NCBI GenBank assembly: GCA_028288625.1
Contig: JAQBNI010000020.1
Location: forward strand, 1 to 38,593
Direction of reading: 5' to 3'
DNA from: Bacteroidota bacterium
GTDB taxonomy: Bacteria > Bacteroidota > Bacteroidia > Chitinophagales > JADIYW01
DNA length: 38,593 nt
The translations under genes and the position numbers were made by a program. The notes below the pieces were generated by a model. The model was not told the origin of the DNA. It made no database searches and saw only the letters and a program-made list of their open reading frames with translations. This document shows positions 2,200 through 32,061 of the stretch, piece by piece; positions within the stretch are counted from its first letter, which is position 1; the number at the start of each line of letters is the position of its first letter.

Positions 2200-4110
2200 T
2201 TAATTTTTTATGCAGCGCACACTAAATCCATAACTCTGGTCATAGTTACCTGCGATACCGCTGCTGATAAATGCATCGTCACCGAATGAACCCATTTTCA
2301 TTACACCTCCAAATGTTGTATTATGGACTGTTGTTGACCACCAAATTCCTTGATTTCCTAATCCCCCGTTACCAGTATTAAAAGTTCCCAGATGCGATCG
2401 GTCGCTCCCTGGTAATCCTGTAAATCCACTGCTGTTATCACCTGCTGAAAATGTTGTATTCCAATGTGAAGATCCCGCTTCTTTTAAATGTTTTCCGGCA
2501 GTTGACTCTCCCCCGAGATAATTGACAAGCGTAGCCCATTCTGCATCTGATGGTGCATGCCAGCCAGAAGGACATAAATTCCTGCTGTCTGTTACAGCAT
2601 ACCAATTGTACAAATTTCCGTAAGTAGCCGCTATACCGGCATCATTATTATAATAGCAGTATTTTCCGTCAGAGCCATTCCATGAAGTATTTCCATCTAT
2701 CACGGGATCTCCATTATTGTATTTTTTCACTTTCAGGTTTTGCTTTAACCAGCATTGTGTTCCGATCTCTACAACATTATAAATATTCCCGTCAATATCC
2801 GTAACGTTAGGTCCGCAGCTACTGCCTGCACTCGTCGCAAAGCTCACTTCATTTCCATAAGCAGTTCCTGCACTATTGGTTGCATACGCGCGAACATAGT
2901 AAGTTGTACCGGATGCTAAGCCTGTTAAAAAACTGGTAAAGCTCCCTGTTCCAGTACCGTTTGTTGTTTTACTGTTTACAATTGTCGGACCCGGAGTGGT
3001 GTTCCAGCAAACTCCGCGAGTTGTAACTGCAGCACCGCCATCAGAAGAAATATTTCCTCCGCTACTTGCAGATGCAGTGGTAATACTGCCAATCGGGTTT
3101 GTTGTAAGTGTAGGAACAATAGCTGCGCTTGTCATAAACGTTATTTCGTTTCCATAAGATGTTCCTGCGCTATTGGTTGCATACGCACGAACATAGTAAG
3201 TTGTATTCGCACTTAATCCTGTCAACGAACTGCCAAAGCTACCTGTCCCCGTTCCGTTCAGCGTTAAGTTATCTGCAAGAGTAGGACTTGTATGTGTCGC
3301 CCAGCATACACCCCGCGAAATAACTGTTGTACCTCCTTGTGATGTTACGTTTCCTCCCGACGCAGCATGATCAGAAAAAATACCAGTAACAGGAGAAGTA
3401 ATTACCGTAGGCGGCGCGGATGTTACATTCAAAGTTGTTAATGAAAATTCACTTCCATAAGCTGTACCCGCACCGTTTGTTGCATATGCTCTTACATAAT
3501 AAGTTGTATTTGGAGTTAACCCCGATAGCACACTTGTAAATGTACCTGTGCCTGTTCCATTTGTAGTTTTACTATCTGCAATTGTTGGATTATGACTGGT
3601 ACTCCAGCAAACACCGCGTGCGATCACTGCAGATCCGCTGTCAGTTGTTACATTGCCCCCGCTTTGCGCAGAAGTATTGGTTACATTCGTGATTGCAGTA
3701 GTCGTTACGACCGGGAAAGCGTAAGGCGTTAACGATGTTATGAATTTCACCTGTGTACCATACGTTGTACCTTTTTTTGTAGTCGCATAAGATCTTACAA
3801 AATAATAGGTAAGCGGCGTTAAACCGGTCATCGAGCTTACAAAATTTCCGGAACCCCATCCATTGCTCGTTTTGCTGTTAGAAACTGTAGGTTTTTCTGT
3901 TGTACTCCAGCATACACCTTTTTCAAGGATAGAATCTTTTCCATAAGATAAGAATTCTCCTCCCGTTGCCGCGGAAGTTAATGTCAGGTTACTGATCGCC
4001 ATTGTTTTGAGGTCGAGCTTTACATCATTGCTCGTAATAGTATCTCCCTTTTTACATCCTGCAATAATTCCCAGTAAAACAACCAACGTTGTAAGTATAA
4101 TTCTCTTCAT
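2200..4110 (-). CDS. Lipoprotein with four ~100-aa repeats and C-terminal FISUMP domain
   Basis: A 636-residue predicted surface or periplasmic lipoprotein. A signal peptide ends in a lipobox with Cys19 (IIAGC). Four tandem fibronectin-III-like repeats follow, each with a GVCW motif at residues 65, 166, 267 and 366 (period 101, 101, 99) and a conserved TYYVRAYATN-type strand. From about residue 435 there is a FISUMP domain (Fibrobacter succinogenes major paralogous domain), recognisable by DIDGNIYNVVEIGTQCW, the NLYNWYAV segment, CPSGWHAPSDAEW and the final SVRCIKN. Proteins of this build are common in Bacteroidota; their function is unknown, though adhesion or glycan binding is often suspected. 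It has its own promoter-like element upstream and is transcribed away from the small lipoprotein and barrel genes behind it. Confidence 0.85.
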   Translation of the reverse strand: MKRIILTTLVVLLGIIAGCKKGDTITSNDVKLDLKTMAISNLTLTSAATGGEFLSYGKDSILEKGVCWSTTEKPTVSNSKTSNGWGSGNFVSSMTGLTPLTYYFVRSYATTKKGTTYGTQVKFITSLTPYAFPVVTTTAITNVTNTSAQSGGNVTTDSGSAVIARGVCWSTSHNPTIADSKTTNGTGTGTFTSVLSGLTPNTTYYVRAYATNGAGTAYGSEFSLTTLNVTSAPPTVITSPVTGIFSDHAASGGNVTSQGGTTVISRGVCWATHTSPTLADNLTLNGTGTGSFGSSLTGLSANTTYYVRAYATNSAGTSYGNEITFMTSAAIVPTLTTNPIGSITTASASSGGNISSDGGAAVTTRGVCWNTTPGPTIVNSKTTNGTGTGSFTSFLTGLASGTTYYVRAYATNSAGTAYGNEVSFATSAGSSCGPNVTDIDGNIYNVVEIGTQCWLKQNLKVKKYNNGDPVIDGNTSWNGSDGKYCYYNNDAGIAATYGNLYNWYAVTDSRNLCPSGWHAPSDAEWATLVNYLGGESTAGKHLKEAGSSHWNTTFSAGDNSSGFTGLPGSDRSHLGTFNTGNGGLGNQGIWWSTTVHNTTFGGVMKMGSFGDDAFISSGIAGNYDQSYGFSVRCIKN

Positions 4111-4133
4111 CTCTTATGGTTTGAGTTAAATAA

Positions 4134-4164
4134 CAAATTAAAATTGTGATATAGTTTGTAACAA
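4134..4164 (-). promoter_or_regulatory. Bacteroidota-type promoter for the FISUMP lipoprotein
   Basis: Read on the minus strand this is TTG (4164-4162), 20 bases, then TTAATTTG (4141-4134), one mismatch from TAnnTTTG. It lies 24 bases before the ATG at 4110. Confidence 0.5.
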
Positions 4165-4291
4165 ATGCTAAAATAAGTATAAAAATTATAACATCAAATA
4201 AATGAGGACAATTAATATGTGTTCTTATGTAAAAAGAAAAAATGATCCACTTACCTTAAAAAGCGGGTTGAAATAAGCATGAAAATAAGTG

Positions 4292-4750
4292 TTATTTGAT
4301 CTTTGTAGCTTTTCCGCTGAACCAGCTGGTATCCCCTGTGCCATTAACTTTATAATAGCTGTAATCCAGGATACTTTTGTTTTCCGATTTGATCTCTATG
4401 TTCCTGAAAGTGGGTAACGCAACTGAAGTAAAGGGATAAATATTAGTGTAAGTTGCATTTGCATCAATTGTTGTACCTGAACCCAGAAAATTGTCTATCG
4501 TGAGTCGTGATTCTATAAATTCTGAATCACCCGGCGCACCGGTGTTCGCCATCTTAGTGATCACCATATCAAACGCATCGTCTGAGGTAGTGGTATCAAT
4601 GCCAATTCGATAGCGTATCTGTGAGCCTGATGCAGTATAATACCCCGAATACTTTTTATAAACTTCTCCTGCGGTATCTTCGTTAATTGTATTTTTTGTA
4701 CAAGCAAATAATATAAACGAAAAAAAGAAAAAAGGTATAACTGCTTTCAT
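4292..4750 (-). CDS. Small lipoprotein, function unknown
   Basis: A 152-residue protein from the ATG at 4750. The frame is open to an earlier ATG at 4774, but that adds a polar stretch in front of a good signal peptide and overlaps the upstream gene, so 4750 is preferred. The signal sequence is MKAVIPFFFFSFILFAC with the lipid-attachment Cys at residue 17. The mature part is beta-strand rich with no recognised motif and ends in WFSGKATKIK. In size and layout it resembles the two small lipoproteins near 34.2 and 34.9 kb, though the similarity is weak. It follows the barrel gene after 17 bp and is probably co-transcribed with it. Confidence 0.7.
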   Translation of the reverse strand: MKAVIPFFFFSFILFACTKNTINEDTAGEVYKKYSGYYTASGSQIRYRIGIDTTTSDDAFDMVITKMANTGAPGDSEFIESRLTIDNFLGSGTTIDANATYTNIYPFTSVALPTFRNIEIKSENKSILDYSYYKVNGTGDTSWFSGKATKIK

Positions 4751-4767: not shown

Positions 4768-5805
4768 TTACCATTTAGGACAAGAGAATTTATGATGGTA
4801 TGGATTTCTTTTTCCGCATGCACCAAATCCAAGATTTTTACCACCCGCGCCGAGAGAAAAAGTAAAGGTTAACTGAACATGCAGAAACTGATCATTATCT
4901 TTTTTGTCGCCGCGTTGCTGACCTACAGCATTAGGATCTGTGATGATTTGTCCGTACCGTGCTTCTGTCGGATTGGAATATCGCTGTCCTTCAACAAAAT
5001 TAAATTGGTCGCTCGGGTATCTTCCTGAATTCGCCCTGTTTTGTAATTGCTGTCCTTCCGGAGATAATTTGGAAATATCTGTAGGATTGATATAATTTCC
5101 ACTCACATCATCGAGATAATCGGTAAACGTCTGGTGATATACACCTTCCAGCGCAACAGAAAATTTTTCAGTGATATTATATTTTACACCGATCATTGCA
5201 ATGAGGTCAAATTGAAAATTGCTGTAAGTTTTTTTGTAACCGATATTTTGTCCTTCTGTTCCTAATGGTTTTAATTTAACTTTTTCACCATTCAGTTTGG
5301 TATAAGGATCAAACCAGAAGAAACCAACACCTCCGCCGATATACGGCGCCCATCTTTCCTTTTCCCCTTTCCCGGCGTCGTGTACATATTTTTTCAAATT
5401 TATTTCCGCCATTCCCTGGAACTCTACAATGTGTGTAATAAAATTCAGGTTCCGTCTCGCCCTGTACCAGCTGTCTGTTGGTCCATTTGGTCCCGGTGGC
5501 GTACCATCTGTATTTTTATCATCAGCAGCCAACATGCCGTACATCAGGTTTCCCCTTACAGCAAGCCATTTATTTACATTATACCTGTAAAAAACAGAAA
5601 TACAAAAACGTGTTGCCTGGAAATCTATATCGCGGATAAACGGTGAACCAATTTTTTTCGCTCCGCCAAGGTCTGTTAATGCAAAATTCGGACCGAAGGA
5701 AAAGCCAATATCATGTCCACTACCTTCCCCTTCAGCACCTTTTGCGACAAAGTTTGAGATAGACAGCATTAAGACCAATAGGCTATAATAGACGATTTTC
5801 TTCAT
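4768..5805 (-). CDS. Outer-membrane beta-barrel protein
   Basis: A 345-residue protein with a signal peptide (hydrophobic residues 5-20, likely cleavage near residue 22). Alternating hydrophobic/aromatic strands follow, beginning HDIGFSFGPNFALTDLGG and including FCISVFYRYNVNKWLAVRG and WAPYIGGGVGFFWF. This is the pattern of the DUF6089/PorT-like outer-membrane barrels of Bacteroidota. The tail after the last clear strand (from FTFSLGAGGK) carries two cysteines and several basic residues, an unusual end for a barrel, where the final residue is usually an aromatic closing a strand. Substrate and role are unknown. It is the first gene of a likely two-gene unit with the small lipoprotein. Confidence 0.75.
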   Translation of the reverse strand: MKKIVYYSLLVLMLSISNFVAKGAEGEGSGHDIGFSFGPNFALTDLGGAKKIGSPFIRDIDFQATRFCISVFYRYNVNKWLAVRGNLMYGMLAADDKNTDGTPPGPNGPTDSWYRARRNLNFITHIVEFQGMAEINLKKYVHDAGKGEKERWAPYIGGGVGFFWFDPYTKLNGEKVKLKPLGTEGQNIGYKKTYSNFQFDLIAMIGVKYNITEKFSVALEGVYHQTFTDYLDDVSGNYINPTDISKLSPEGQQLQNRANSGRYPSDQFNFVEGQRYSNPTEARYGQIITDPNAVGQQRGDKKDNDQFLHVQLTFTFSLGAGGKNLGFGACGKRNPYHHKFSCPKW

Positions 5806-14366: not shown

Positions 14367-17300
14367 TTAAAATACAGCGCGTAATTGGGCTCTGCCCGTA
14401 TTGATCAATTTTGCCGTACCTGTTTTCCTACCTTCATACGTAAGGCTTAACTCGAGATTCTGGGAAATATTACGCGTATAACTTGCACTCCATAAATAAT
14501 TTTTACCGGGCTGCAATCCTTCTAAGATCGTATACGATTTTGTCGTACCGTTCTCGCCGGTAAATTTCACAACAGCTAGAGTAAACTTAGTTTCCAGTGT
14601 ATTTTTTGCTGCTTTGTTGTAACGAAGCTCCAGTTCCATTTTATTGGCTATGGTACGTTCTCCCCCGAGGTCTGATCTGTTTTTCTTTTCTGTAAATCCG
14701 TAGCTGACAGACGTGCGCAGGCTGGTTTTAAAGTTATAAGTAAACTTCGGTTCCAGGTAATATCCATGAATGTTGTAATCATTCGGATGGAAATAATCGG
14801 AGATCAGAGATAACCTCGATTGTATAAATTTCATGTTCAAAGTAAACATGGTATTCAGGTTGTAATATCCTTCCAGGATATTGTCCATTCTTTTTCTTGT
14901 ATCAAAGCCATTTATGAGTAAAACTTTATCATTCACTAATTGGTTTGTAAATGAAAATGAATAGATCGGATCCCCGGAATTAAAAATAAAAGTATTCCGG
15001 ATATTCGAGTTTAAAGTGATCGTATTCGAGTCAGAAGTTCGGAAAATAAATGGGTTGAAAGATCTTAGTGCGTTGCTCTTATATGTTTTTCTTTTGATCT
15101 GCAAGTAAGATTGAAAAGTAAGCTTCGACATAAAATTCTTAAATCCTTTTTCATTAAACCAAATTGCTTTGGGTTGAATCGTTATATTTTGTGTATACGC
15201 TGTCGAATTGGATCGTACATATTCATTCAGATCTGTTAAGACCCTTACATATTGCGCGCTATCATTAAATTGCGAAGGAACAAACTCATTTAATTCAGGA
15301 ATACTGTTCTGGTTCTGATCTATCCATTTATAATAACCTTGTCCCGAAGGCACTTGTATATAGGTGAACTGCCGTACTTTTTCCCTGCCTCCGCCCAGCT
15401 CATAAATAAAATTTAAACGCAATACTCCTTTCTTTATTCGTGCGCCATACTCAGTTCTTCCCAGGTATGTTTTCTCCGATTGAGCCTGTATTGTGGTATC
15501 TTTTACAACGAGATCCCTGAAAGTGAATGTCCAGTTGAAAGTTTGATTTTTAATTTGATTCGCAGTTCCGTGGAAGTCCAGTGTATGAGCAATTGTTGAG
15601 TCTTTAAAAGATCCGTTCACCACTTCAATATCTTTCCTGTATTTATATTCAAGCATGAAACTCCATTTTGCAGTGTCGGGTAAAAAAAATTGCGCGGATA
15701 AATTATTATTTCTAAATGAATTTTGTTGCAGCACATTTGTAGATTTTGTTTTGAAAATATTATTCTCCTGGAAAAAGCCAACCCCAAAACCTAATCCGCG
15801 TACCTTTGCAATAGAATAAATTACATTCACCAGCGGTCTGAAGAAGATAGATTTATACAGAGAGTCGCGCGTATTTAAAACCCGCGCTTCCATGATAATG
15901 CGCAGCCCTTTAAATTCGTTTGCAAAATTTAACCGGTTTTCATAACCCTGATATTTTTGCTGCCGTATAAAAGTAGAAAACTGGTAACCCACCTGTATCT
16001 TATGTTTGATATCGAATAAACCAGTCATATACCGCGCAATATGCTCAGTTAAATTTGCCTCGTTAGTAATGTTCCAGTCGCGGCTGAACTCTACATTCCG
16101 ATAAGGCTCGATCTGCGTAAAGCGGCGATCTTTAAATTCATAATCCACTGCGTTCGTAAATACAAGATTATGCTTGAAAGAATCAACACGACTTACCTGG
16201 AGATTGGCTGCATAGCCTTTATTTTCTTTATTCCCGACGGAAGAAAATAAATTCCTGTCATAATTTGAAAATGCCATCTCTGTGCGGATCTTCATTTTAT
16301 CGTTGATCTGGTAGCCTATGCCAAACGTAAACAGCAACTGACTTTTCGGAGTTACGATCAAAGTAACCGGCTCATAGCTGCCTTGTGGAATTCCGTTCAG
16401 AGGCTCTATCCATTGATACACGCGAACATTATTAGGATTTTTTGTCGGAATATAATTTCCTTTATTTTGTCCAAGATAGGAAAACGATAAAGAGAATTTT
16501 CCACTATCTGGATTTGTTTCATAAACAAAGACGGAATCGTAGGTAACTGAATTTATGGTCGAATCCACTTTGCGGTATTGCACGCGGTTCGGATCGAAAG
16601 TAGTTTCGTGAACACCGGAAATATAAGCATTGCTAATATCATTGCCAATGGTTGATAAATAGAGCTTGGTGCTATCGGAAAGTGAATTAGTGATCGGTTT
16701 ATTTTTTGCATCCTGTTCGGAATAAACCTGTGTAAAAATATTCAGCTTTTTGTAATTGAAATTAATTCCTTCATGAACTGTAGTTCGAAAATAATTTTTA
16801 TCGGAATACTCAAACTCCACTACGATCCGCGAATCTTTTGTAATTAAAAAACGTGGCATGAATAATACTTCACCGCTGTTATAATCCATCACATAATCGA
16901 GCAACTCTCCTCTTTGCAGGCGAACGCCGTCAACATACACTTTTTCACTTCCTGCAAGCACGATGATAAAAGATTCATTGTTACTTCCTGTTAACCTGTA
17001 AGGTCCCTGGTTGCCTTCACTTCCCTGGAAAATATTCCGCGTAAATTTCCCCCTGCTTACGGCGAGTGATGTAGATGTTTGTAAGCGGATGCCTTTTTTA
17101 AATACTAGATTATTCGCATAACTCGCTCCCTGCAATTGCTTTGAAAATCTCATAAAATAACTGTCAAAGCTTTTCAAATTATAATCTCCGGCAATAATTA
17201 TATGCGGATCTTTTTTGAGTTGGATATATACCTTATCAAAATCCTGCAGCTGCTGTGTTGTTCCATCAGGCTGCAAGGGAATATTGTTATCAGTTAAAGC

Positions 17301-17858
17301 AGCAGTGATTTCTATTCCATTGGCTATTTTTCCGCTTAAGCGAAGATCGAGTGTTGAATTTAAAGTAAGATCCTGGTTGGAACCGAACTGGATGCCGCGC
17401 GCAAAATTTCCACTGTAATTCAAGCCTCCAAAATCTAAAAAAGATGCAGATTCCACAGATAACGGCTGATAGTAATAACTTTCATAAAAAGCAGAATCTC
17501 CCTTCCTGATGATGTTGCGGCTTTTATGCTGCACCACTGTCGCGAGATGTATAGGAAAAGAGCGGTAAGTGATCAGCACAGAATCGGGCTTCGGACTTGT
17601 AAAGAACAATTTCCCATTCGCATAATCCAGCTTATAATTTTCTTTAGGAATGATTTCATTAGTTTTCATATCCCTGATCACCAATGTACCCGGGAAAATA
17701 CTCGATGTATCTATTTTCATCGTATCCCGTACAGTTGGAAATATTTTCGCCCGTAAATTGGAATAGGAAAAATCGCGCGGAGCCAGTAGTTGAGCATCAG
17801 CCAAAAAATAGCTGAAACACATAGTGAAAAAAATTACTATTTGTTTTCTAATGGTCAT
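14367..17858 (-). CDS. Large outer-membrane beta-barrel protein, 1163 aa
   Basis: A signal peptide (residues 1-22, ending ADAQ) is followed by a short N-terminal domain. Then come long alternating strands to the very end (RAQLRAVF), the design of a large outer-membrane barrel. Stretches such as LDLRLSGKIANGIEITAAL, DFDKVYIQLKKD and DYNSGEVLFMPRFLITKDSR recall repeated segments of SprA, the giant T9SS translocon protein. SprA is about twice as long (roughly 2,400 residues), so this is not SprA but perhaps a shorter relative. Asn/Tyr-rich strands such as NRNLFSSVGN are common throughout. No partner gene is adjacent; both neighbours are read in other directions. Function unknown, export or surface assembly possible. 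Confidence 0.75.
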   Translation of the reverse strand: MTIRKQIVIFFTMCFSYFLADAQLLAPRDFSYSNLRAKIFPTVRDTMKIDTSSIFPGTLVIRDMKTNEIIPKENYKLDYANGKLFFTSPKPDSVLITYRSFPIHLATVVQHKSRNIIRKGDSAFYESYYYQPLSVESASFLDFGGLNYSGNFARGIQFGSNQDLTLNSTLDLRLSGKIANGIEITAALTDNNIPLQPDGTTQQLQDFDKVYIQLKKDPHIIIAGDYNLKSFDSYFMRFSKQLQGASYANNLVFKKGIRLQTSTSLAVSRGKFTRNIFQGSEGNQGPYRLTGSNNESFIIVLAGSEKVYVDGVRLQRGELLDYVMDYNSGEVLFMPRFLITKDSRIVVEFEYSDKNYFRTTVHEGINFNYKKLNIFTQVYSEQDAKNKPITNSLSDSTKLYLSTIGNDISNAYISGVHETTFDPNRVQYRKVDSTINSVTYDSVFVYETNPDSGKFSLSFSYLGQNKGNYIPTKNPNNVRVYQWIEPLNGIPQGSYEPVTLIVTPKSQLLFTFGIGYQINDKMKIRTEMAFSNYDRNLFSSVGNKENKGYAANLQVSRVDSFKHNLVFTNAVDYEFKDRRFTQIEPYRNVEFSRDWNITNEANLTEHIARYMTGLFDIKHKIQVGYQFSTFIRQQKYQGYENRLNFANEFKGLRIIMEARVLNTRDSLYKSIFFRPLVNVIYSIAKVRGLGFGVGFFQENNIFKTKSTNVLQQNSFRNNNLSAQFFLPDTAKWSFMLEYKYRKDIEVVNGSFKDSTIAHTLDFHGTANQIKNQTFNWTFTFRDLVVKDTTIQAQSEKTYLGRTEYGARIKKGVLRLNFIYELGGGREKVRQFTYIQVPSGQGYYKWIDQNQNSIPELNEFVPSQFNDSAQYVRVLTDLNEYVRSNSTAYTQNITIQPKAIWFNEKGFKNFMSKLTFQSYLQIKRKTYKSNALRSFNPFIFRTSDSNTITLNSNIRNTFIFNSGDPIYSFSFTNQLVNDKVLLINGFDTRKRMDNILEGYYNLNTMFTLNMKFIQSRLSLISDYFHPNDYNIHGYYLEPKFTYNFKTSLRTSVSYGFTEKKNRSDLGGERTIANKMELELRYNKAAKNTLETKFTLAVVKFTGENGTTKSYTILEGLQPGKNYLWSASYTRNISQNLELSLTYEGRKTGTAKLINTGRAQLRAVF

Positions 17859-22633: not shown

Positions 22634-24184
22634 TTATTTCAGTTTTTTAGGAAATCGGAAATTGAATTGTGTCGTCATGCCTAATTGAAAACTCATTGGT
22701 TGCCCTTTTTTCAAAGTAGATCCGAAACCCGCGCGCGCGCCGACAGTCAGGCACATAAAGCGTGTGAGGAAAAGATCGTAATCAAATCCACCTGTTAAGC
22801 CGAGCTCTGTTTTATTATATCCCGGTGCATTCTGCATACGCTCTCCATCGAACAATACTTTTTGCTTTACCAGGATCGACATTTGCGGACCGAATAAAAA
22901 ACTCACCGCCATCGGTCTTGTATTAAAATTATTGATGAAAGTATGTTTGTATTTCACCATTAGTGGCAGTTTTGTATACATCAGATTCACACTTTTGCTA
23001 TGAGGACCATCCTGCTGTTCAACCAGGTATTTCTGACCCTGTTCAGAAACCTGCAATTCCAGCTCAATTCCCCATCGATCGGTGTAGTCGTAACCGATGT
23101 TTATGCCATAAGCTTTTCCTATTCTCATTTGCGGCTTGATGGAAGTTGTGTTTTCATCAGCACTGTAATATTTGTTCGTGAGCCAGTTATTATTGAGGTT
23201 GAAAAACGCACCGATGTGAAAACCTTTGTTGATATCGTATCCGTTAAATTGTTTTTTGATCCTCAGCATTTTTGCTTTTTTAGGATCCAGGTTAATGCTA
23301 CCTGACTTTGATTCCAGCTTTAATTTCTCAAGTTTTTCCGGCTTCACCAGCGACTCTAAAACCTGTCTTGAACTCAACGGAGAAGCTTGTGCTTTAACCG
23401 GCGACATGGAAACAGTCAGTGGTTCAGCTTCTGTTTTTCTCATCGGTTCTGCAATTGGAGTAATATCTTCTGCTGCTGTAATTTCAGAATTGGTATTATC
23501 ATTTGATGCTGCTAAAGTATTACTTCTTCCCCCATCAATTTCAACAGAAATATTTTTTACATTTTTTTCTGCATCTGAGTTGTCTGAAGTAACATTATTT
23601 TTTAAGTTTGCCTCTATACCTTGCGAAGAATTTGTTGAAATAGAAGAAGCAATAAATGCATTTACTTGCTGCGGATTATCAACATTAATTTTTTCTACAG
23701 AAACTTGTTTTACTTCAAAGCGTTTTAGTCTTTCCTGTCTTTTAGTATTAAACACATCATCTTTCTTTGACGCATTATTTTCAGGAATATAAAATGATGC
23801 AACAGAAGCATTGTTCTGAACATTTGAACCTTTATTTTTTGAAGAAGTTTTATTTTCTACAGTGGTTGCTGAAGTATTTAGTGCAGTTGTAATGGCGGGA
23901 TGAATAGTTCCCGAAGCTAATTCATCTTTCAACAATCTTTTTTTGATCGCGATCTTGCTTACATTATTTTTAAGAAAAAGTGTTTTGTATATGAAGATAC
24001 TTGTGGAAGATGAAAAGCCCAATATACCGAGCAACAGCAAATATTTGTATTTACTATACCATTTCGTATTTGCAGGTAACTGTTTTTCAATGCGGTCCCA
24101 CAAAAACCTTGGCGGCTCTGCAGTTGCATCTTCCAGTGTCCTCTTTACAAATTGGTCAAACCTGTTATTTGACGATCGCAGCAC
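22634..24184 (-). CDS. Putative trans-envelope sigma regulator: IM helix, long linker, OM-type barrel
   Basis: A 516-residue protein of unusual layout. Residues 1-45 are charged with a short FDQFVKRTLED...PPRFLWDRIEKQL pattern seen at the N-terminus of membrane-bound regulators paired with Bacteroidota ECF sigma factors. Residues 47-70 form one transmembrane helix. Residues 71 to about 318 are a polar, Ser/Asn/Lys-rich linker of low complexity. From about 320 to the end there is a PorT-like beta-barrel (GFHIGAFFNLNNNW, GINIGYDYTDRWGIELELQV, GLTGGFDYDLF, final FNFRFPKKLK). There is no cleavable signal peptide. The start is a GTG at 24184, 20 bp inside the end of the sigma gene, so the two are translationally coupled. 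Anti-sigma activity is an inference from position. Confidence 0.75.
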   Translation of the reverse strand: MLRSSNNRFDQFVKRTLEDATAEPPRFLWDRIEKQLPANTKWYSKYKYLLLLGILGFSSSTSIFIYKTLFLKNNVSKIAIKKRLLKDELASGTIHPAITTALNTSATTVENKTSSKNKGSNVQNNASVASFYIPENNASKKDDVFNTKRQERLKRFEVKQVSVEKINVDNPQQVNAFIASSISTNSSQGIEANLKNNVTSDNSDAEKNVKNISVEIDGGRSNTLAASNDNTNSEITAAEDITPIAEPMRKTEAEPLTVSMSPVKAQASPLSSRQVLESLVKPEKLEKLKLESKSGSINLDPKKAKMLRIKKQFNGYDINKGFHIGAFFNLNNNWLTNKYYSADENTTSIKPQMRIGKAYGINIGYDYTDRWGIELELQVSEQGQKYLVEQQDGPHSKSVNLMYTKLPLMVKYKHTFINNFNTRPMAVSFLFGPQMSILVKQKVLFDGERMQNAPGYNKTELGLTGGFDYDLFLTRFMCLTVGARAGFGSTLKKGQPMSFQLGMTTQFNFRFPKKLK

Positions 24185-24743
24185 TTCTTTTTACTATTTC
24201 AGACTTTTTAACCATATCCATTAACAAGTATCTTGCCCTGGATAACTGTGATTTCGAGGTGCCTTCGCTGATCTCAAGGAGTTCTCCTATCTCTCTGTGC
24301 GAATACCCTTCTACCACATACAAGTTAAATATCGTTCTATAACCCGGTGATAATTTATTGATCATATTCATGAGATCCTCCAACTGAAGGTCGTCTCCTG
24401 AATCTTCCCAGGTTATATTTCTGTTTACATCCTCCACATTGACCATCGGATACATTTTTGTGGATTTCCTGTAATGTTCTACTGCGGTGTTCACCATGAT
24501 CCTTCTCACCCAGCCTTCAAAAGAACCTTCTCCGCGGAATTTATCAATATTGACAAAAACCTTGACGAAACCTTCCTGTAAAAGGTCTTCTGCGGCTTCG
24601 CGGTTTTTGGCGTAGCGCAGACAAACGGAAAACATCCTGGCTGACAATAAATTATACAGCTTATACTGAGCTTCCCGCAGATTGCGCCTGCAACCGGCAA
24701 TGAGCTCGTTATATAGTGTTATTTTTTCGTCCTGGGGTTGCAT
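24165..24743 (-). CDS. ECF-type RNA polymerase sigma factor
   Basis: A 192-residue sigma-70-family factor of the extracytoplasmic-function group. Region 2 spans about residues 25-95, with CLRYAKNREAAEDLLQEGFV and FRGEGSFEGWVRRIMVN. Region 4 spans about 120-175, with LSPGYRTIFNLYVVEGYSHR and EIGELLEISEGTSKSQLSRAR, a clear helix-turn-helix. Regions 1.2 and 3 are absent, as expected. It directs transcription in response to an envelope signal. The overlapping downstream gene is the obvious candidate regulator. I did not find an autoregulatory promoter by eye. Confidence 0.92.
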   Translation of the reverse strand: MQPQDEKITLYNELIAGCRRNLREAQYKLYNLLSARMFSVCLRYAKNREAAEDLLQEGFVKVFVNIDKFRGEGSFEGWVRRIMVNTAVEHYRKSTKMYPMVNVEDVNRNITWEDSGDDLQLEDLMNMINKLSPGYRTIFNLYVVEGYSHREIGELLEISEGTSKSQLSRARYLLMDMVKKSEIVKRSAAIVK

Positions 24744-24793: not shown

Positions 24794-25372
24794 TTAATAG
24801 TATTCAGACAAATATGTAATTAATTTTTTTGTGGCAATGCCGCGATGGCTAATGGCAGATTTCTCTTCCAAAACCAGTTCTGCCAGCGTTCTTCCGTCGG
24901 GTAAAACAAATACGGGATCATAGCCAAATCCATGTAAACCCGTTTTATCGAAACCTATTGTTCCCTTCAGTATGCCGGTGAACTGATGCTGTACACCATC
25001 AATGATCAATGTGATCACCGTTTTAAACTGTGCTGCCCTGTTTTTTATCCCCTTCATATTTTGGAGTAATTTATCCATGTTTTTATTTGCATCCTTTTCT
25101 TCACCTGCATAACGTGCACTATATACACCCGGTTCTCCATTCAATGCTTCAACTTCCAGCCCTGTATCTTCAGAAAAACAATTCACTTTAAACTTTTGAA
25201 AAATGTATTCCGCTTTTTCTATCGAATTATCTTCGATTGTATCGTGTGTCTCAGGTAACTCCTCATTACATCCGATCTCATTCAGTTTTTTTATCGTAAA
25301 TTGTCCGGAAAGTAAGATCTCTATCTCCCTGATCTTGTTCTCATTGTTGGTTGCAAAAACAATTTCTTTCAT
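24794..25372 (-). CDS. rdgB: XTP/dITP pyrophosphatase (RdgB/HAM1)
   Basis: Hydrolyses non-canonical purine triphosphates (XTP, dITP, ITP) to the monophosphate and pyrophosphate, keeping them out of nucleic acids. The 192-residue protein shows all family motifs: FATNNENKIREI at the N-terminus, CFSEDTGLEVEALNGEPGVY, SARYAGE, GFGYDPVFVLPDGRTLAEL and KSAISHRG. The length is normal. Its ATG overlaps the upstream gene's TGA as ATGA, so it is translated together with that small unknown protein. Confidence 0.93.
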   Translation of the reverse strand: MKEIVFATNNENKIREIEILLSGQFTIKKLNEIGCNEELPETHDTIEDNSIEKAEYIFQKFKVNCFSEDTGLEVEALNGEPGVYSARYAGEEKDANKNMDKLLQNMKGIKNRAAQFKTVITLIIDGVQHQFTGILKGTIGFDKTGLHGFGYDPVFVLPDGRTLAELVLEEKSAISHRGIATKKLITYLSEYY

Positions 25373-25874: not shown

Positions 25875-26957
25875 ATGTCAACTCAAGTTATGGAATTGGA
25901 AACATTACCTATAGTGATCGAAAAAGTAAAAGAGAGTAAATTGTCAAAGATCGACTTTAACAATCTGCCTTTCGGTAAAACTTTTTCAGACCACATGATG
26001 GTTTGCGAATACTACGACGGCAAATGGCAGTCTGCAAAAATTCAGCCTTACGGAAATATATCCATCAGCCCGGCATGTAATGTTTTTCATTACGGGCAAG
26101 CGGTTTTTGAAGGCATGAAAGCATATTATAAGGAAGATGAAAGCGGCATTGTTTTATTCCGTCCGGAAGAAAACTGGAAGCGCTTAAACAAGTCTGCAGT
26201 GCGCATGTCTATGCCTCAGGTTCCCGAAGAATTATTTATGGAAGGTATCAAGCAATTGATAGAACTGGATAAGGCATTTATTCCTGCACAGGAAGGAAGC
26301 TCACTATACATCCGACCGTTTATTATAGGCACGGAACCGTTTATCGGCGTAAGAACTTCTGACCGTTATTTATTTTGCATCATCATCGGTCCTACCGGTC
26401 CGTATTACGGAGAACCTATTTCCGTTTTGGTGTACGATACTTTTATCCGCGCAACAAAGGGCGGCTACGGCAATGCAAAGGCTGCAGGAAATTATGCAGG
26501 CACTTTATATCCTGTGGAGCAGGCAAAAAAATTAGGTTATAAAGATGTGTTGTGGCTCGATGGCGAACATAAAAAATATGCGAATGAAGTTGGCACAATG
26601 AATATCTTTTTTGTGATCGATGGAAAACTGATCACTCCTGAAACCGATGGAACAATACTGGAAGGTATTACAAGAGACAGTGTAATTAAAATCGCAAAAG
26701 ATTTCGGGTATACTGTTGAAGAGCGCCCGATCTCTATTGATGAAATTGTTGATGCGCATGACAGCGGGAAGCTCACTGAAATGTTTGGCGTAGGAACTGC
26801 AGCGGTAATAAATCCTATCAATCGCTTTGGATACAAGGGCAAAGATTATTTGCTGGATGAAAATAAATTTGTCATTGCGCAGCAATTAAAAAAAGAACTG
26901 GTATCCATTCAAAAATGCATTATCGAAGACCGCTTCGGATGGGTTGTGGAAGTGTAA
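25875..26957 (+). CDS. ilvE: Branched-chain amino acid aminotransferase
   Basis: A PLP-dependent fold-type IV transaminase that interconverts leucine, isoleucine and valine with their 2-oxoacids. At 360 residues it belongs to the longer, mitochondrial-BCAT-like class. Lys202 in GNAKAAGNYA is the PLP lysine, equivalent to CKMGGNYG in the human enzyme. Other family segments are NVFHYGQAVFEGMKAY, LYIRPFIIGTEP and EVGTMNIFFVIDGKLITP. It stands alone, divergent from the rdgB pair, with the protease gene 41 bp behind it. This enzyme also supplies the oxoacids for iso-branched fatty acids typical of Bacteroidota. Confidence 0.93.
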   Translation: MSTQVMELETLPIVIEKVKESKLSKIDFNNLPFGKTFSDHMMVCEYYDGKWQSAKIQPYGNISISPACNVFHYGQAVFEGMKAYYKEDESGIVLFRPEENWKRLNKSAVRMSMPQVPEELFMEGIKQLIELDKAFIPAQEGSSLYIRPFIIGTEPFIGVRTSDRYLFCIIIGPTGPYYGEPISVLVYDTFIRATKGGYGNAKAAGNYAGTLYPVEQAKKLGYKDVLWLDGEHKKYANEVGTMNIFFVIDGKLITPETDGTILEGITRDSVIKIAKDFGYTVEERPISIDEIVDAHDSGKLTEMFGVGTAAVINPINRFGYKGKDYLLDENKFVIAQQLKKELVSIQKCIIEDRFGWVVEV

Positions 26958-26998
26958 TTCTCTCTTATAAATTTTACTGTCACGAATATTTTAATCAT

Positions 26999-28846
26999 AT
27001 GAAGCTTTTTACCTTCTGCATCATTGCATTTGTATTTGGTTGTGTGTTTCCGTTATTTTCTCAGGATAATTTACCATGCGCAAATGAAAAATTTCAGCAA
27101 CAGCAATTAATTGATCCAGTATATAAAAAGGAATTTGATAAAGTAAATAATGCGATCATTAGCGGAATGAACAAACCTGCTGCAGGCCACCCGGTTTATA
27201 CTATTCCAATCGCAGTGCATGTTTTACATTTAGGTGAACCTATTGGAACCGGTAGCAATATCTCTGATCAGCAAATTATTGATGCAGTTCGCGGTGCAAA
27301 TGAAAGGTGGCGACATGTGATCGGCAATGGCTTGGATATGGAAGTGGAGTTTTGTCTCGCACAATTCGATCAGCATGGCAACCCGAGTACGGGAATTGAC
27401 AGGATCGATGCAAGTTCAATGCCGGATTATAAAGATTACGGCATCAGTTATGTTGGAGCATTAGGCGAACCGGGTTCCAATGAAGAGAATACAAAAAACC
27501 TGCTGAACTGGCCGCACAATTATGTTTTTAATATCTGGGTGGTGCACAGGATCGCGGGAGACTGGGGCGGTTACGCGTTTTTTCCTTTCACTTTTAATTA
27601 TCCGACGGATGGCGTGGTGATCACTTCGAATTCTACAACTTATTCGAGCACTACCCTCGCACATGAGCTTGGACATGGCATGGGGCTTTTTCATACTTTC
27701 CAGGGTGATGAAAATGGCTGTCCTGCAAATGATCTTTGCTTTCTCCAGGGTGACTGGGTTTGCGATACACCGCCGCATAAAAAACCCGATTGTGGTGCCA
27801 GCGCTAATTGCTCCAATAACCCGGACAGCGTTTTGATCAATGCATACAAAAACTATATGAGTTATTGCGGCGGTAGAGACCGTTTTACGCCGGGACAAAA
27901 AGAAAGATCGCGTCTTGCGATTAAATCTTCTACACGGGTTGACTTGCTTCGCTCATATGCGTGCAGCGGTCCGCCTTGCGATACTGCTTTTACACAAATT
28001 AATTCGAGAACCTGCAATCCGGCAAATGCAGGTATTCACATTGATACATTATTAACTTCAAAAGGCTGCGATAGTATTGTGAAAATAATTACAGCTTATA
28101 TTCCGCCTGTTGCCACGCAGCTTTCTGCGCAAACTTGCGATGTTTCAGCTGCGGGAATACATTTTGATACTTTAACTTCTTCAATGGGATGTGACAGTAT
28201 TGTGAAAACAACGACCACTTTTATTTCACCCGTAACCACACAGCTTAGCGCGCAATCCTGCGATGTTTCGGCAACGGGGATACACGCTGATACTTTAGCA
28301 GCTTCAAGGGGATGCGACAGTATTGTAATCACAACTACTTCTCTTATTTCTGCCGCTGTTGCAGATTTTAATTTTTTACAAAATGTATTTACTGTGACGT
28401 TTCATAACAACTCACAAAATGGAAATAATTATTACTGGAATTTCGGGGATGATTCTACTTCAACAGAAGCAGAACCTGTTCATCAATATCTTCAGGCAGG
28501 TTCTTACAATGTTTCATTGATCGCACAAAATACCTGCGGAACAGATACAGCTCATTCTACCGTAGACATATTCTTAACCGGTATAAAAAACCACCACAAT
28601 TTAAATTCGCTTCGTATTTACCCCAACCCCAATAGCGGAAGCTTTACGTTTGATATGGATATTAAAGAATCTTTCATTGCAGAGATCATTAATACGCTTG
28701 GGCAAATTGTTGAACGCCAATTTTTATCTGCAGGAAAACAACATAACATATCACTTCACAAAATTATTCCGAAAGGAATTTATCAACTTCGCATAAGAAG
28801 AGATAATGGGGAGATCTCAGGTGAAACTCAATTCAGTATTCATTAA
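26999..28846 (+). CDS. T9SS-secreted M43 (pappalysin-like) metalloprotease
   Basis: A 615-residue secreted protein starting at the ATG at 26999, which opens a good signal peptide (MKLFTFCIIAFVFGCVFPLF). The frame is open back to 26915 but that overlaps ilvE. The zinc motif HELGHGMGLFH begins at His222, with His226 and His232 as further ligands and Glu223 as catalyst; the Met-turn is YMSYCGG near 287. Three ~41-residue repeats follow (about 335-455), each with C-x8-G-I-H and GCDSIV, then a PKD domain with YYWNFGDDSTS. From about 537 there is a type A T9SS sorting domain (RIYPNPNSGSFTFDM to the end). Expected to be cut and anchored or released at the cell surface. Confidence 0.9.
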   Translation: MKLFTFCIIAFVFGCVFPLFSQDNLPCANEKFQQQQLIDPVYKKEFDKVNNAIISGMNKPAAGHPVYTIPIAVHVLHLGEPIGTGSNISDQQIIDAVRGANERWRHVIGNGLDMEVEFCLAQFDQHGNPSTGIDRIDASSMPDYKDYGISYVGALGEPGSNEENTKNLLNWPHNYVFNIWVVHRIAGDWGGYAFFPFTFNYPTDGVVITSNSTTYSSTTLAHELGHGMGLFHTFQGDENGCPANDLCFLQGDWVCDTPPHKKPDCGASANCSNNPDSVLINAYKNYMSYCGGRDRFTPGQKERSRLAIKSSTRVDLLRSYACSGPPCDTAFTQINSRTCNPANAGIHIDTLLTSKGCDSIVKIITAYIPPVATQLSAQTCDVSAAGIHFDTLTSSMGCDSIVKTTTTFISPVTTQLSAQSCDVSATGIHADTLAASRGCDSIVITTTSLISAAVADFNFLQNVFTVTFHNNSQNGNNYYWNFGDDSTSTEAEPVHQYLQAGSYNVSLIAQNTCGTDTAHSTVDIFLTGIKNHHNLNSLRIYPNPNSGSFTFDMDIKESFIAEIINTLGQIVERQFLSAGKQHNISLHKIIPKGIYQLRIRRDNGEISGETQFSIH

Positions 28847-29001: not shown

Positions 29002-32000
29002 ATGAAGCGCTATCTTATCCTGGTTATTTTATTTTCTGTTACAACTGAAAAAATTCATGCACAATATGTAATTCCCGATTCAGCGTTTGCTGCCTATTTA
29101 ACTTACCTGTACCCCGATTGCATGAGCGGAAAAACACTTGATACGAATTGCAGTGCATTGGTTGATACGGCTCAATTATATGTCAGTTTGTATTCCGCCA
29201 TTCATTCGTTGGATGGAATCAAATATTTAAAAAAGCTGAAGCGGTTGCAGTGCAGCAGCATGGAACTTACTGAGCTGGCGGAACTACCGCCTTCCCTCGA
29301 GGATCTTGAGGCATATGCCAATCACTTAACTTCGTTACCGGATCTTCCGCACACATTAAAAATATTAAATTGCGGCGACAATTTGTTGACTGCCATACCC
29401 GCACTACCTGATTCTCTAGACTATATCCAATGCTATCAGAACTTATTGACTTCATTCCCTGCATTGCCAAACACAATCCATCATTTAAGATTCGAAAAAA
29501 ATCAAATTAGCGTTCTGCCTGTCTTACCTGATTCTTTATACTTTTTGGGTGCCCGGGAAAATAAAATTACAACGTTGCCGCCGCTCCCGTCACACCTTCA
29601 TGATTTAGACGTGAGTGAAAATCAGCTAACATCATTGCCGGCATTACCTCCTTTGTTGGTCAATTTTTATTTTGATCACAATAATATCAGCAGTTTACCG
29701 GTGTTGCCTGACAGCATTGTTAATTTAAACGGAGCACGAAACCATCTGACATCATTACCACCTCTGCCGGTCAATCTTGAAAATTTATATTTAGTCCATA
29801 ATGACCTGACGAGTATTCCAACGCTGCCAAATAAAATATACAGGTTGATTCTTGACAGTAACTATATCACATCATTACCATCTTTACCTGAATCATTAGG
29901 GTGGTTATATGTAAATAATAATGAACTGATCAGCATACCCACGTTGCCTTCACGCTTCAGTGACCTCTATTGCAACCATAATCATCTTACTTCATTACCT
30001 GCTTTGCCAACTTCCTTGCTTGATCTCGATTGCAGCTACAATAATATTGCGGAACTTCCAACGTTACCTCCATATATATTAACGCTCTATTGCCAGCATA
30101 ACCAGCTTAGCGATCTGCCTCTTTTGCGAAGTGAAATGTGGAACCTTGACTGCAGTAATAATAAAATCACACATCTCAGTAGTATTCCGTCGCTTGAATT
30201 TTCAGGATTTAAATGCGATTCAAATTTACTGACCAGTCTTCCTGCGATCCCTATGTATACAACGAGCATTTCCTGTAATCATAATCTATTGACCTCTTTG
30301 CCTGAATTTCCTGACGGTATGACTTTTATATCGTGCAACGACAATCAATTGACGAGTTTAATATTACCTGTTTCAGGAGTAACCTATTTGAGCTGTGCTT
30401 ATAATAAACTAACGTCGTTGCCTGCTTTGCCACCTATGAGAGTTTTGGATTGCAGTCACAATTTACTCAGTACGTTACCAGATCTGCCCGATTCCCTGCG
30501 TGAATTAAATTGCACTTATAATCCGTTAAGCTGCTTACCTGAATTTCCTCCGTTTCTTGGTATTCCGGGTGAATATTATTTTCCGGATTACATCAGATCC
30601 ATTGGAGGGCTTTATGTAAAACACACAAACATAAGCTGTTTTGCTCGCGTACCTGATGTTACTGCAGTTGTAGATACGTTACTTCCTGTTTGCACAAACC
30701 TCTCCGATATTTGTAATGTGCATCCTACCATGAGCGGAAGAATTTACTGGGATAAAAATTACAATAATCAATATGATTTCCCGGAACCATTCCTTTCTGA
30801 CCAAATAATAAAAGTGAGCCCGGGCAATTGGACAAGCAATAGTGATCAGAATGGACTATATCACGTGAAGCTGGATACGAATATAGAAAACACCATCAGG
30901 TGTTATTCTACACTGAATTATGCTAGTATTTTCCCTTCCAATTATAGTATATCTCCAACCACTCTGGAGAATGTACCGGGATCATATGATTTTGCAATTC
31001 AGATACCCCCGGGAATTTATGATCTCGAAGCAGGACTCGCATCCGGAGTTGCACGCCCCGGGTTTCTTACGAATGTAACGGTGACCATCAGTAATACGGG
31101 AACTGAAGATCAATCTGATATTATTTTAAAGCTGAAAAAACCCACAGGCTTTGATGTTTACAGTTCAAGTATAACACCATCATTGATTGTTGACGATACA
31201 CTTATTTGGGAAAACTTTTCACTGGAACATTTTAAAAACACTTCCTTCCAGGTTACGTTACAGGTTCCTCAGAATGCAACAATCAATTCTCTGGCAGAAT
31301 ATGAAGCATGGGCATATGGTGTAAATGGAGATACGACACCCGCGAACAATTATGCGCGATGGACAGAAGCAATACGAGGCTCGTATGATCCGAATGATAA
31401 GGTCGTTAATAAAAATGTTTTATCATCAACTTATTCGGATTCAGACAGACTTATATATACCATTCGATTTCAAAATACCGGCACAGATACAGCATTCACA
31501 GTAATTGTCCGAGATACCATTTCTTCTATGCTGGATATTTCGTCATTAAAAATAATTAATGCGAGCCATCCGTATCAATTGATCATAAGAGATAAAAATA
31601 TAGTCGAAATAGCATTTTCGAATATTCAATTGCCCGATTCAATCCACGATGAGACAGCTTCTCATGGTTTTGTTCAATTATCTTTAAAACCACGAAACGG
31701 TCTGCAGGTAAACGACGAGATTAACAACTCCGCATCCATTTTATTTGATTATAACTCTCCGGTAAAAACTAACACTGCACGCACGAGTGTACAAATTATT
31801 ATTGGGGTGATGAATATGTCCAAACTCTCATTCAAACTTTTTCCTAACCCTGCTGCGGAAAAAATTATTGTGGAATTACCTTCCTCTGAAAATTGCAATT
31901 GGCAGTTAACGGATATCAGCGGAAAAATGATATTGCGAAATTCTATAAACGGCAAAAAACAATTTGATATTAATGTTGCTGGTATTCACGAGGGAACTTA

Positions 32001-32061
32001 TATTTTATCAATGGAAGTAAACGATAACTTCTCCTCATCAAAAATTATTATTGTGCGATAA
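29002..32061 (+). CDS. T9SS-secreted protein with ~21 IpaH/YopM-like leucine-rich repeats
   Basis: A 1019-residue secreted protein with a signal peptide ending IHAQ near residue 21. From about residue 92 to 519 there are about 21 leucine-rich repeats of 20 residues, of the form LPxLPxxLxxLxxxxNxLTS, the short bacterial class known from YopM and IpaH. Next comes a SdrD-B-like or CNA-like segment (GRIYWDKNYNNQYDF at about 578), a DUF11-like beta-sandwich (VTVTISNTGTEDQSD) and a DUF7619-like domain opening GSYDPNDKVV at about 793. The final ~77 residues (FKLFPNPAAEKIIVELP onward) are a T9SS sorting domain. No catalytic domain is evident, so it is probably a binding or adhesion protein. A hairpin terminator follows immediately. 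Confidence 0.88.
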   Translation: MKRYLILVILFSVTTEKIHAQYVIPDSAFAAYLTYLYPDCMSGKTLDTNCSALVDTAQLYVSLYSAIHSLDGIKYLKKLKRLQCSSMELTELAELPPSLEDLEAYANHLTSLPDLPHTLKILNCGDNLLTAIPALPDSLDYIQCYQNLLTSFPALPNTIHHLRFEKNQISVLPVLPDSLYFLGARENKITTLPPLPSHLHDLDVSENQLTSLPALPPLLVNFYFDHNNISSLPVLPDSIVNLNGARNHLTSLPPLPVNLENLYLVHNDLTSIPTLPNKIYRLILDSNYITSLPSLPESLGWLYVNNNELISIPTLPSRFSDLYCNHNHLTSLPALPTSLLDLDCSYNNIAELPTLPPYILTLYCQHNQLSDLPLLRSEMWNLDCSNNKITHLSSIPSLEFSGFKCDSNLLTSLPAIPMYTTSISCNHNLLTSLPEFPDGMTFISCNDNQLTSLILPVSGVTYLSCAYNKLTSLPALPPMRVLDCSHNLLSTLPDLPDSLRELNCTYNPLSCLPEFPPFLGIPGEYYFPDYIRSIGGLYVKHTNISCFARVPDVTAVVDTLLPVCTNLSDICNVHPTMSGRIYWDKNYNNQYDFPEPFLSDQIIKVSPGNWTSNSDQNGLYHVKLDTNIENTIRCYSTLNYASIFPSNYSISPTTLENVPGSYDFAIQIPPGIYDLEAGLASGVARPGFLTNVTVTISNTGTEDQSDIILKLKKPTGFDVYSSSITPSLIVDDTLIWENFSLEHFKNTSFQVTLQVPQNATINSLAEYEAWAYGVNGDTTPANNYARWTEAIRGSYDPNDKVVNKNVLSSTYSDSDRLIYTIRFQNTGTDTAFTVIVRDTISSMLDISSLKIINASHPYQLIIRDKNIVEIAFSNIQLPDSIHDETASHGFVQLSLKPRNGLQVNDEINNSASILFDYNSPVKTNTARTSVQIIIGVMNMSKLSFKLFPNPAAEKIIVELPSSENCNWQLTDISGKMILRNSINGKKQFDINVAGIHEGTYILSMEVNDNFSSSKIIIVR

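Follow-up and report, generated by a model that had tools for sequence, protein, structure and literature searches.

The locus described here raises the question of whether an outer-membrane barrel, a periplasmic tether and a cytoplasmic anti-sigma end can be joined in one chain that is encoded directly behind the sigma factor gene, and whether such a chain is a new kind of signalling device. The window, by which we mean the whole stretch of DNA that was analysed, is the 38,593-nt contig JAQBNI010000020.1 of assembly GCA_028288625.1 (Bacteroidota bacterium, Chitinophagales). The features that bear on the question are collected in Table 1.

Table 1. The sigma/barrel gene pair and the parts of the 516-aa protein, with their positions in the window.
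Feature	Position	Strand	Basis
ECF sigma factor gene, 192 aa, ATG start	24165..24743	minus	Sigma70_r2 and Sigma70_r4_2 matches
Candidate anti-sigma/barrel gene, 516 aa, GTG start	22634..24184	minus	ORF, Pfam, alignment
Overlap of both reading frames, 20 nt	24165..24184	minus	ORF coordinates
Residues 1-40, N-terminal anti-sigma-like module, two predicted helices	24065..24184	minus	Alignment, AlphaFold2
Residues 48-66, single transmembrane helix (predicted)	23987..24043	minus	Hydropathy maximum 1.62; AlphaFold2 helix 41-58
Residues 67-318, periplasmic linker, 252 residues, predicted disordered	23231..23986	minus	pLDDT mostly <50; 25% ILVFWYMC
Residues 319-516, 8-stranded outer-membrane beta-barrel (predicted)	22637..23230	minus	PF13505, AlphaFold2, fold comparison

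The sigma protein carries sigma-70 regions 2 and 4 (Pfam, E 2.2e-16 and 1.4e-17, respectively), and the 20-bp overlap with the next gene that was claimed in a first-pass annotation agrees with the coordinates found here (24165-24184), so that the sigma and barrel genes may be translationally coupled through it. The GTG of the barrel gene is almost the first codon of its open frame (518 versus 516 aa), and GTG with an overlap of 17-20 nt is also found in three of the four same-genus relatives with a visible start (L031-L033), the fourth (L044) having an ATG start and an overlap of 20 nt. Directly upstream of the sigma gene lies a Ham1-family gene (24794-25372, minus strand). Since a similar Ham1-family gene occupies the same spot in three same-genus relatives (L108, L109, and L111), the sigma/barrel pair may be co-transcribed with it. 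The same-genus regions upstream of the sigma gene consist mostly of the end of the Ham1-family gene, and no shared promoter before the sigma gene was evident by eye in four of them.

Up to E 1, the sole Pfam match in the 516-aa protein is the barrel, to PF13505 (OMP_b-brl) over residues 322-504 (E 1.5e-6, 29.0 bits, just above the cut-off of 28.7), and no NCBIfam model matches at its cut-off. AlphaFold2, given the full-length window protein and four relatives from metagenome-assembled genomes (three labelled Chitinophagales and one Bacteroidota, one of them partial), placed helices at 7-19, 26-35, and 41-58 and eight strands at 321-512, with a mean pLDDT of only 46.8 and low-confidence blocks of 45-53 in the N-terminal and helix parts. 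In the N-terminal module, the alignment of 31 members of the family reveals the pattern D..F...L.......P....W..I...L with an invariant W29. The single transmembrane helix that had been placed at 47-70 is borne out by the hydropathy peak at 48-66 together with the modelled helix. Less in line with the mechanism proposed below, positive charges are equal on either side of it in the window protein (4 and 4), although over the 31 members they average 3.5 on the N-terminal side versus 1.9 on the other. Two members have weak hydropathy peaks (L058, 0.96, and L051, 1.27), and the same two have the shortest linkers. That the protein has no cleavable signal peptide, as had been claimed, is judged probable from hydropathy and from the conserved N-terminal module.

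The linker, put at about 247 residues in the first-pass annotation and at 252 by the definition used here, is indeed long and predicted to be disordered. Over the 31 members, window included, its length ranges from 95 to 286 residues (median 162). These linkers contain on average 26% strongly hydrophobic residues, versus 37% in the barrels, and only 2 cysteines in 5550 residues. An extended polypeptide covers about 0.36 nm per residue, so that even the shortest linker could stretch about 34 nm. Modelled alone, the barrel gives a much firmer picture (pLDDT 81.3, pTM 0.72, eight main strands), and it was this model of the barrel alone that served as the query in the structure comparison reported here. 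In the full-length model the three turns on the presumed periplasmic side are short, at 4-6 residues, and both barrel ends would face the periplasm if the barrel is oriented like OmpA, which is what a tether from below requires.

Among the solved structures listed, the best matches of the barrel model are integral outer-membrane barrels at Z 15-18 (OmpA, OmpW, NspA, OprG, and PagL); the individual scores include Legionella porin III (Z 18.5, 3.6 A over 190 residues), OmpA (Z 17.1, 3.1 A over 173), NspA (Z 16.8, 3.1 A over 152), and OmpW (Z 16.6, 3.1 A over 173). These matches bear on the idea that the barrel is never inserted and is instead kept in the periplasm as the sensor domain of an anti-sigma factor of the normal inner-membrane kind. 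Soluble barrels do exist, and chains of the PsbO type appear in the structure list, but they stand lower, at about Z 9-10.5, in a range that also holds some true outer-membrane barrels. At E 0.01, moreover, 24 of the 31 members match PF13505 and 23 match PF13568, and we regard a soluble periplasmic barrel as extremely improbable. The barrel had been called PorT-like. This is only partly borne out. An outer-membrane barrel it appears to be, but a relationship to PorT found no support: what it resembles are general OMP barrel families and folds of the OmpA/OmpW/NspA type, and no PorT model, should the Pfam and NCBIfam libraries contain one, is among its matches there.

The pairing of the barrel with a sigma gene, which the first-pass annotation had proposed to look for elsewhere in Bacteroidota, recurs both within the order and beyond it. 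The search of the order covered 60 genomes, the source genome included, and returned 60 rows that correspond to 57 distinct places, with matches in 42 genomes. We examined 42 of the 57 places, in the window and 40 fetched regions; of the remaining 15, 14 are frames of 122-293 aa and the last is an N-terminal fragment located at a contig end. Of the 42 proteins, 34 have the N-terminal module and helix, six are barrels with a signal-peptide-like start, as judged from hydropathy, and two (L034 and L043) are cut by contig ends and stand in neither count. L044, which is cut before the barrel, was counted for its N-terminus, and L057, which starts at a contig end, was left out of the pairing count. 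An ECF sigma gene lies directly upstream on the same strand in 31 of the 33 module-and-helix proteins with upstream DNA in view, and the 31 are spread over 30 of the 60 genomes and 13 families. The sigma gene overlaps in 25 of the 31 pairs, by 8-26 nt, and is spaced by 5-87 nt in the other six. Recurrence at this frequency argues that the pairing of sigma and barrel genes is not due to chance. The two exceptions (L045:4466-5821 and L047:4541-5893) are both full-length, Dma-like and from a single genus; the DNA fetched around them shows no sigma gene, and their target may be a sigma factor whose gene lies elsewhere. As possible evidence of binding, covariation between sigma factor and N-terminus was considered and set aside, the correlation of their distances beyond that of the barrel being too weak (28 members, partial r 0.12, with 205 of 2000 permutations as high).

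The same survey speaks to a second alternative, namely that the protein is a common outer-membrane barrel whose signal peptide is cleaved and merely of unusual length, and that the sigma gene merely keeps it company in an operon, without regulation. The hydrophobic stretch before the barrel does resemble a signal peptide and is followed in the window protein by serines, and extended signal peptides are found in autotransporters. Against this explanation stands a conserved pattern with an invariant tryptophan in the first 40 residues, a pattern that is matched at the dma2-like loci described below. Within the same barrel family, moreover, there are members that begin with a short signal-peptide-like stretch, and none of the six has a sigma gene alongside. 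With the barrel as the only Pfam match in the chain also counting against it, we consider this explanation very improbable.

Across the phylum, a profile of the family matches 76 of 198 genomes, a number that includes matches to the N-terminus only in frames of about 250 aa. Seventeen distant loci were picked for an N-terminal match and a long frame, and so do not form a random sample; a sigma gene adjoins in all 17. Pfam was run on eight of these 17 proteins, of which five match an OMP barrel family (one below cut-off) and three are without a barrel match.

An arrangement of this kind is already on record in gut Bacteroides. The portions of PMC13088901 on which we draw describe the Dma family of dual membrane-spanning anti-sigma factors, defined by an N-terminal anti-sigma domain, a transmembrane helix, a long disordered tether and a C-terminal beta-barrel, with genes that adjoin those of ECF21 sigma factors and a distribution given as Bacteroidota only. 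Loss of Dma1 or Dma2 leads to more vesicle production via Das1 or Das2, Dma3 has the sigma domain within the same chain, and Dma1 was first described in a 2024 PNAS paper, cited via PMC13088901. Dma1/Das1 and Dma2/Das2 of Bacteroides thetaiotaomicron thus have, from that account (PMC13088901), the same four parts in the same order as the protein of the window, an adjoining sigma gene, and Bacteroidota as their home. Phocaeicola vulgatus offers a further likeness by description, in a different order of bacteria and with the same anatomy: in the portions of PMC9308784 used here, the pair M0N98_03760/03761 consists of a sigma gene followed by that of a large anti-sigma factor which is predicted to span the periplasm and to end in an outer-membrane barrel, a toxin that damages the envelope induces the sigma gene, and the pair is likely triggered by envelope stress. 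EcfO and its anti-sigma factor in Bacteroides fragilis, linked to oxidative stress and cited in PMC13088901, are called a similar pair in those portions (PMC9308784), again a likeness by description.

The comparison with Dma was made through dma2-like loci rather than through the named Dma sequences, the loci being located with DUF4943 as a marker (BT_1557, the neighbour of dma2). DUF4943 was found in three of 99 genomes of the class and is absent from the source genome. Two of these three genomes, both of one genus and hence not independent, have the order sigma gene, 351- or 356-aa anti-sigma gene and DUF4943, with a sigma overlap of 17 nt, and this is the order implied by the BT locus numbers; the third had no sigma gene within the 12 kb fetched. 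The N-termini of the two dma2-like anti-sigma factors align with those of the present family in a profile comparison, which speaks to homology only, at E 4.8e-8 and 9.6e-5, versus 0.18 for a control, an unrelated gene behind another sigma gene of the source genome. This comparison aligned the N-terminus only, and the link between the barrels rests on Pfam, with PF13505 matched by the dma2-like barrels at E 2.6e-7 (above cut-off) and 1.5e-5 (below cut-off).

Our tree of sigma factors contains 58 of them (48 paired, two dma2-like, and eight other ECF sigmas of the source genome), one further sigma on L150 having been left out by hand. All 48 paired and both dma2-like sigmas fall on one side of a branch with support of 89/82, and the same group plus a paralogue of the source genome, C152, is separated from the seven other ECF sigmas of that genome with support of 100/93, with a long-branch warning for these other sigmas. 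N-terminus and sigma factor of the window are related to those of the dma2-like loci but distant from them, the protein is longer (516 aa, against 351-356 aa), and the DUF4943 neighbour is lacking from the genome.

Taken together, the four parts of a Dma protein, the recurrent pairing with a sigma gene and the homology to loci of dma2 order make it highly likely, in our analysis, that the two genes encode a sigma/anti-sigma pair of the Dma type in which a single chain runs from the barrel to the sigma factor. The proposal that one chain holds barrel, tether and anti-sigma end finds support in the architecture, which is conserved together with the sigma gene, and in the homology to loci of dma2 order, but the novelty that it implied is not supported: a one-protein device of a new kind is rejected in view of what PMC13088901 and PMC9308784 already describe. 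Very probably, the pair is the Chitinophagales representative of the known Dma kind and not a new device. No paper on the Chitinophagales pair was found in the literature that we searched.

In the TonB-dependent cell-surface signalling of FecA/FecR/FecI, the receptor and the anti-sigma factor are separate proteins. The outcome resembles the one proposed here, as a surface event activates an ECF sigma factor, but here there is one chain with a small 8-stranded barrel, and neither a FecR nor a TonB-receptor domain was found in the 516-aa protein with Pfam at E up to 1.

One such sigma/barrel pair was found in the source genome, in which the whole 516-aa protein matches itself only. None of the other PF13505/PF13568 barrel loci of the genome is beside a sigma gene of this type, and no barrel was seen among the genes behind eight other sigma genes that are matched by this sigma, for some of which the next gene is unclear. 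The nearest sigma paralogue, C152 (L100:3496-4068), overlaps a gene (4052-4585) for a single-helix anti-sigma factor. Like the window protein, it has a sigma overlap (17 nt) and a short N-terminus with W..L...L before the helix; unlike it, it has 190 aa and no barrel, and its N-terminal match is weaker (E 6.7e-4). The 190-aa gene is possibly like the form that preceded the gain of the barrel. A weak second N-terminal match in the genome lies on C80 (frame 326). Elsewhere in the window are a second PF13505/DUF6089 barrel with a signal-peptide-like start (4768-5805, minus strand), an M43-type metallopeptidase with a PKD domain and a leucine-rich-repeat protein (26915-28846 and 29002-32061, both plus strand), each with a type 9 secretion tail (Pfam Por_Secre_tail), and a 1163-aa open frame without a Pfam match at E 0.001 (14367-17858, minus strand).

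We propose the following mechanism for the pair. The N-terminal ~40 residues would lie in the cytoplasm and, on the model of the Bacteroides work, hold the ECF sigma factor inactive. One helix would cross the inner membrane, the flexible linker of ~250 residues would cross the periplasm and the cell wall, and the C-terminal 8-stranded barrel would sit in the outer membrane with both of its ends toward the periplasm, the arrangement seen in OmpA. Any disturbance there, whether of the barrel or the surrounding outer membrane, would then be passed down the chain by pull, by proteolysis or by loss of assembly, and the sigma factor, freed in the way that the Bacteroides work suggests, would transcribe its regulon. 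How a barrel could be inserted while the N-terminus is anchored in the inner membrane had been regarded as a puzzle. There is no contradiction in this if the helix serves as a signal anchor that is not cleaved and the linker provides slack, and linkers of 95 to 286 residues, or ~34 nm and more when extended, may do so.

Such a resting span would not exist if the chain were cut in the periplasm during normal growth, leaving an inner-membrane stub and a free barrel. A long, poorly conserved linker that is predicted to be disordered would be an easy target for a protease, and many helices in the alignment carry small residues midway along their length, a trait common among intramembrane-protease substrates. 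Helix, linker and barrel nevertheless stay fused across 13 families, in a search that began from the fused protein and is blind to split versions, and the Dma domains are described as reaching from the outer membrane into the cytosol (PMC13088901, in the portions drawn on here). We therefore consider a chain cut as a matter of routine improbable and continue with the intact chain of the Dma type.

As to what the barrel would respond to, envelope stress has been suggested in one of the described cases (PMC9308784) and a surface glycan in the other (PMC13088901). A conserved ligand-binding loop, which would be evidence for surface sensing, was looked for here and rejected, as the predicted outer loops are less conserved than the strands over the order (0.09-0.16 versus 0.22-0.44 identity to the window protein). 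Among the five closest sequences, the identities of loops (0.42-0.61) and strands (0.46-0.82) overlap, with a stretch of loop 1 (S.DENT) conserved throughout this set. The poor conservation of the outer loops across the order leads us to favour slightly the general state of the envelope over one shared ligand. A bolder proposal, which we hold to be unlikely, is that the pair keeps watch, as an old and phylum-wide system, over outer-membrane assembly, with the barrel's own insertion as the signal: as long as the barrel is correctly folded within the outer membrane, the anchored N-terminus would hold the sigma factor, and failed insertion or pull-out of the barrel would release it. If true, the low conservation of the outer loops across the order and the puzzle of the anchored barrel would both be explained.

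The Dma family has already been placed across Bacteroidota in PMC13088901 and PMC9308784, and even the spread of the family may thus be known. To this family, known from work on gut Bacteroides, the present analysis adds a sigma/anti-sigma pair that occurs in 13 families of Chitinophagales and their relatives. With linker lengths between 95 and 286 residues, the 31 aligned members would allow a test of the minimum length of the tether, and they would also allow one to ask whether it is a ligand or the condition of the outer membrane that the barrel senses.
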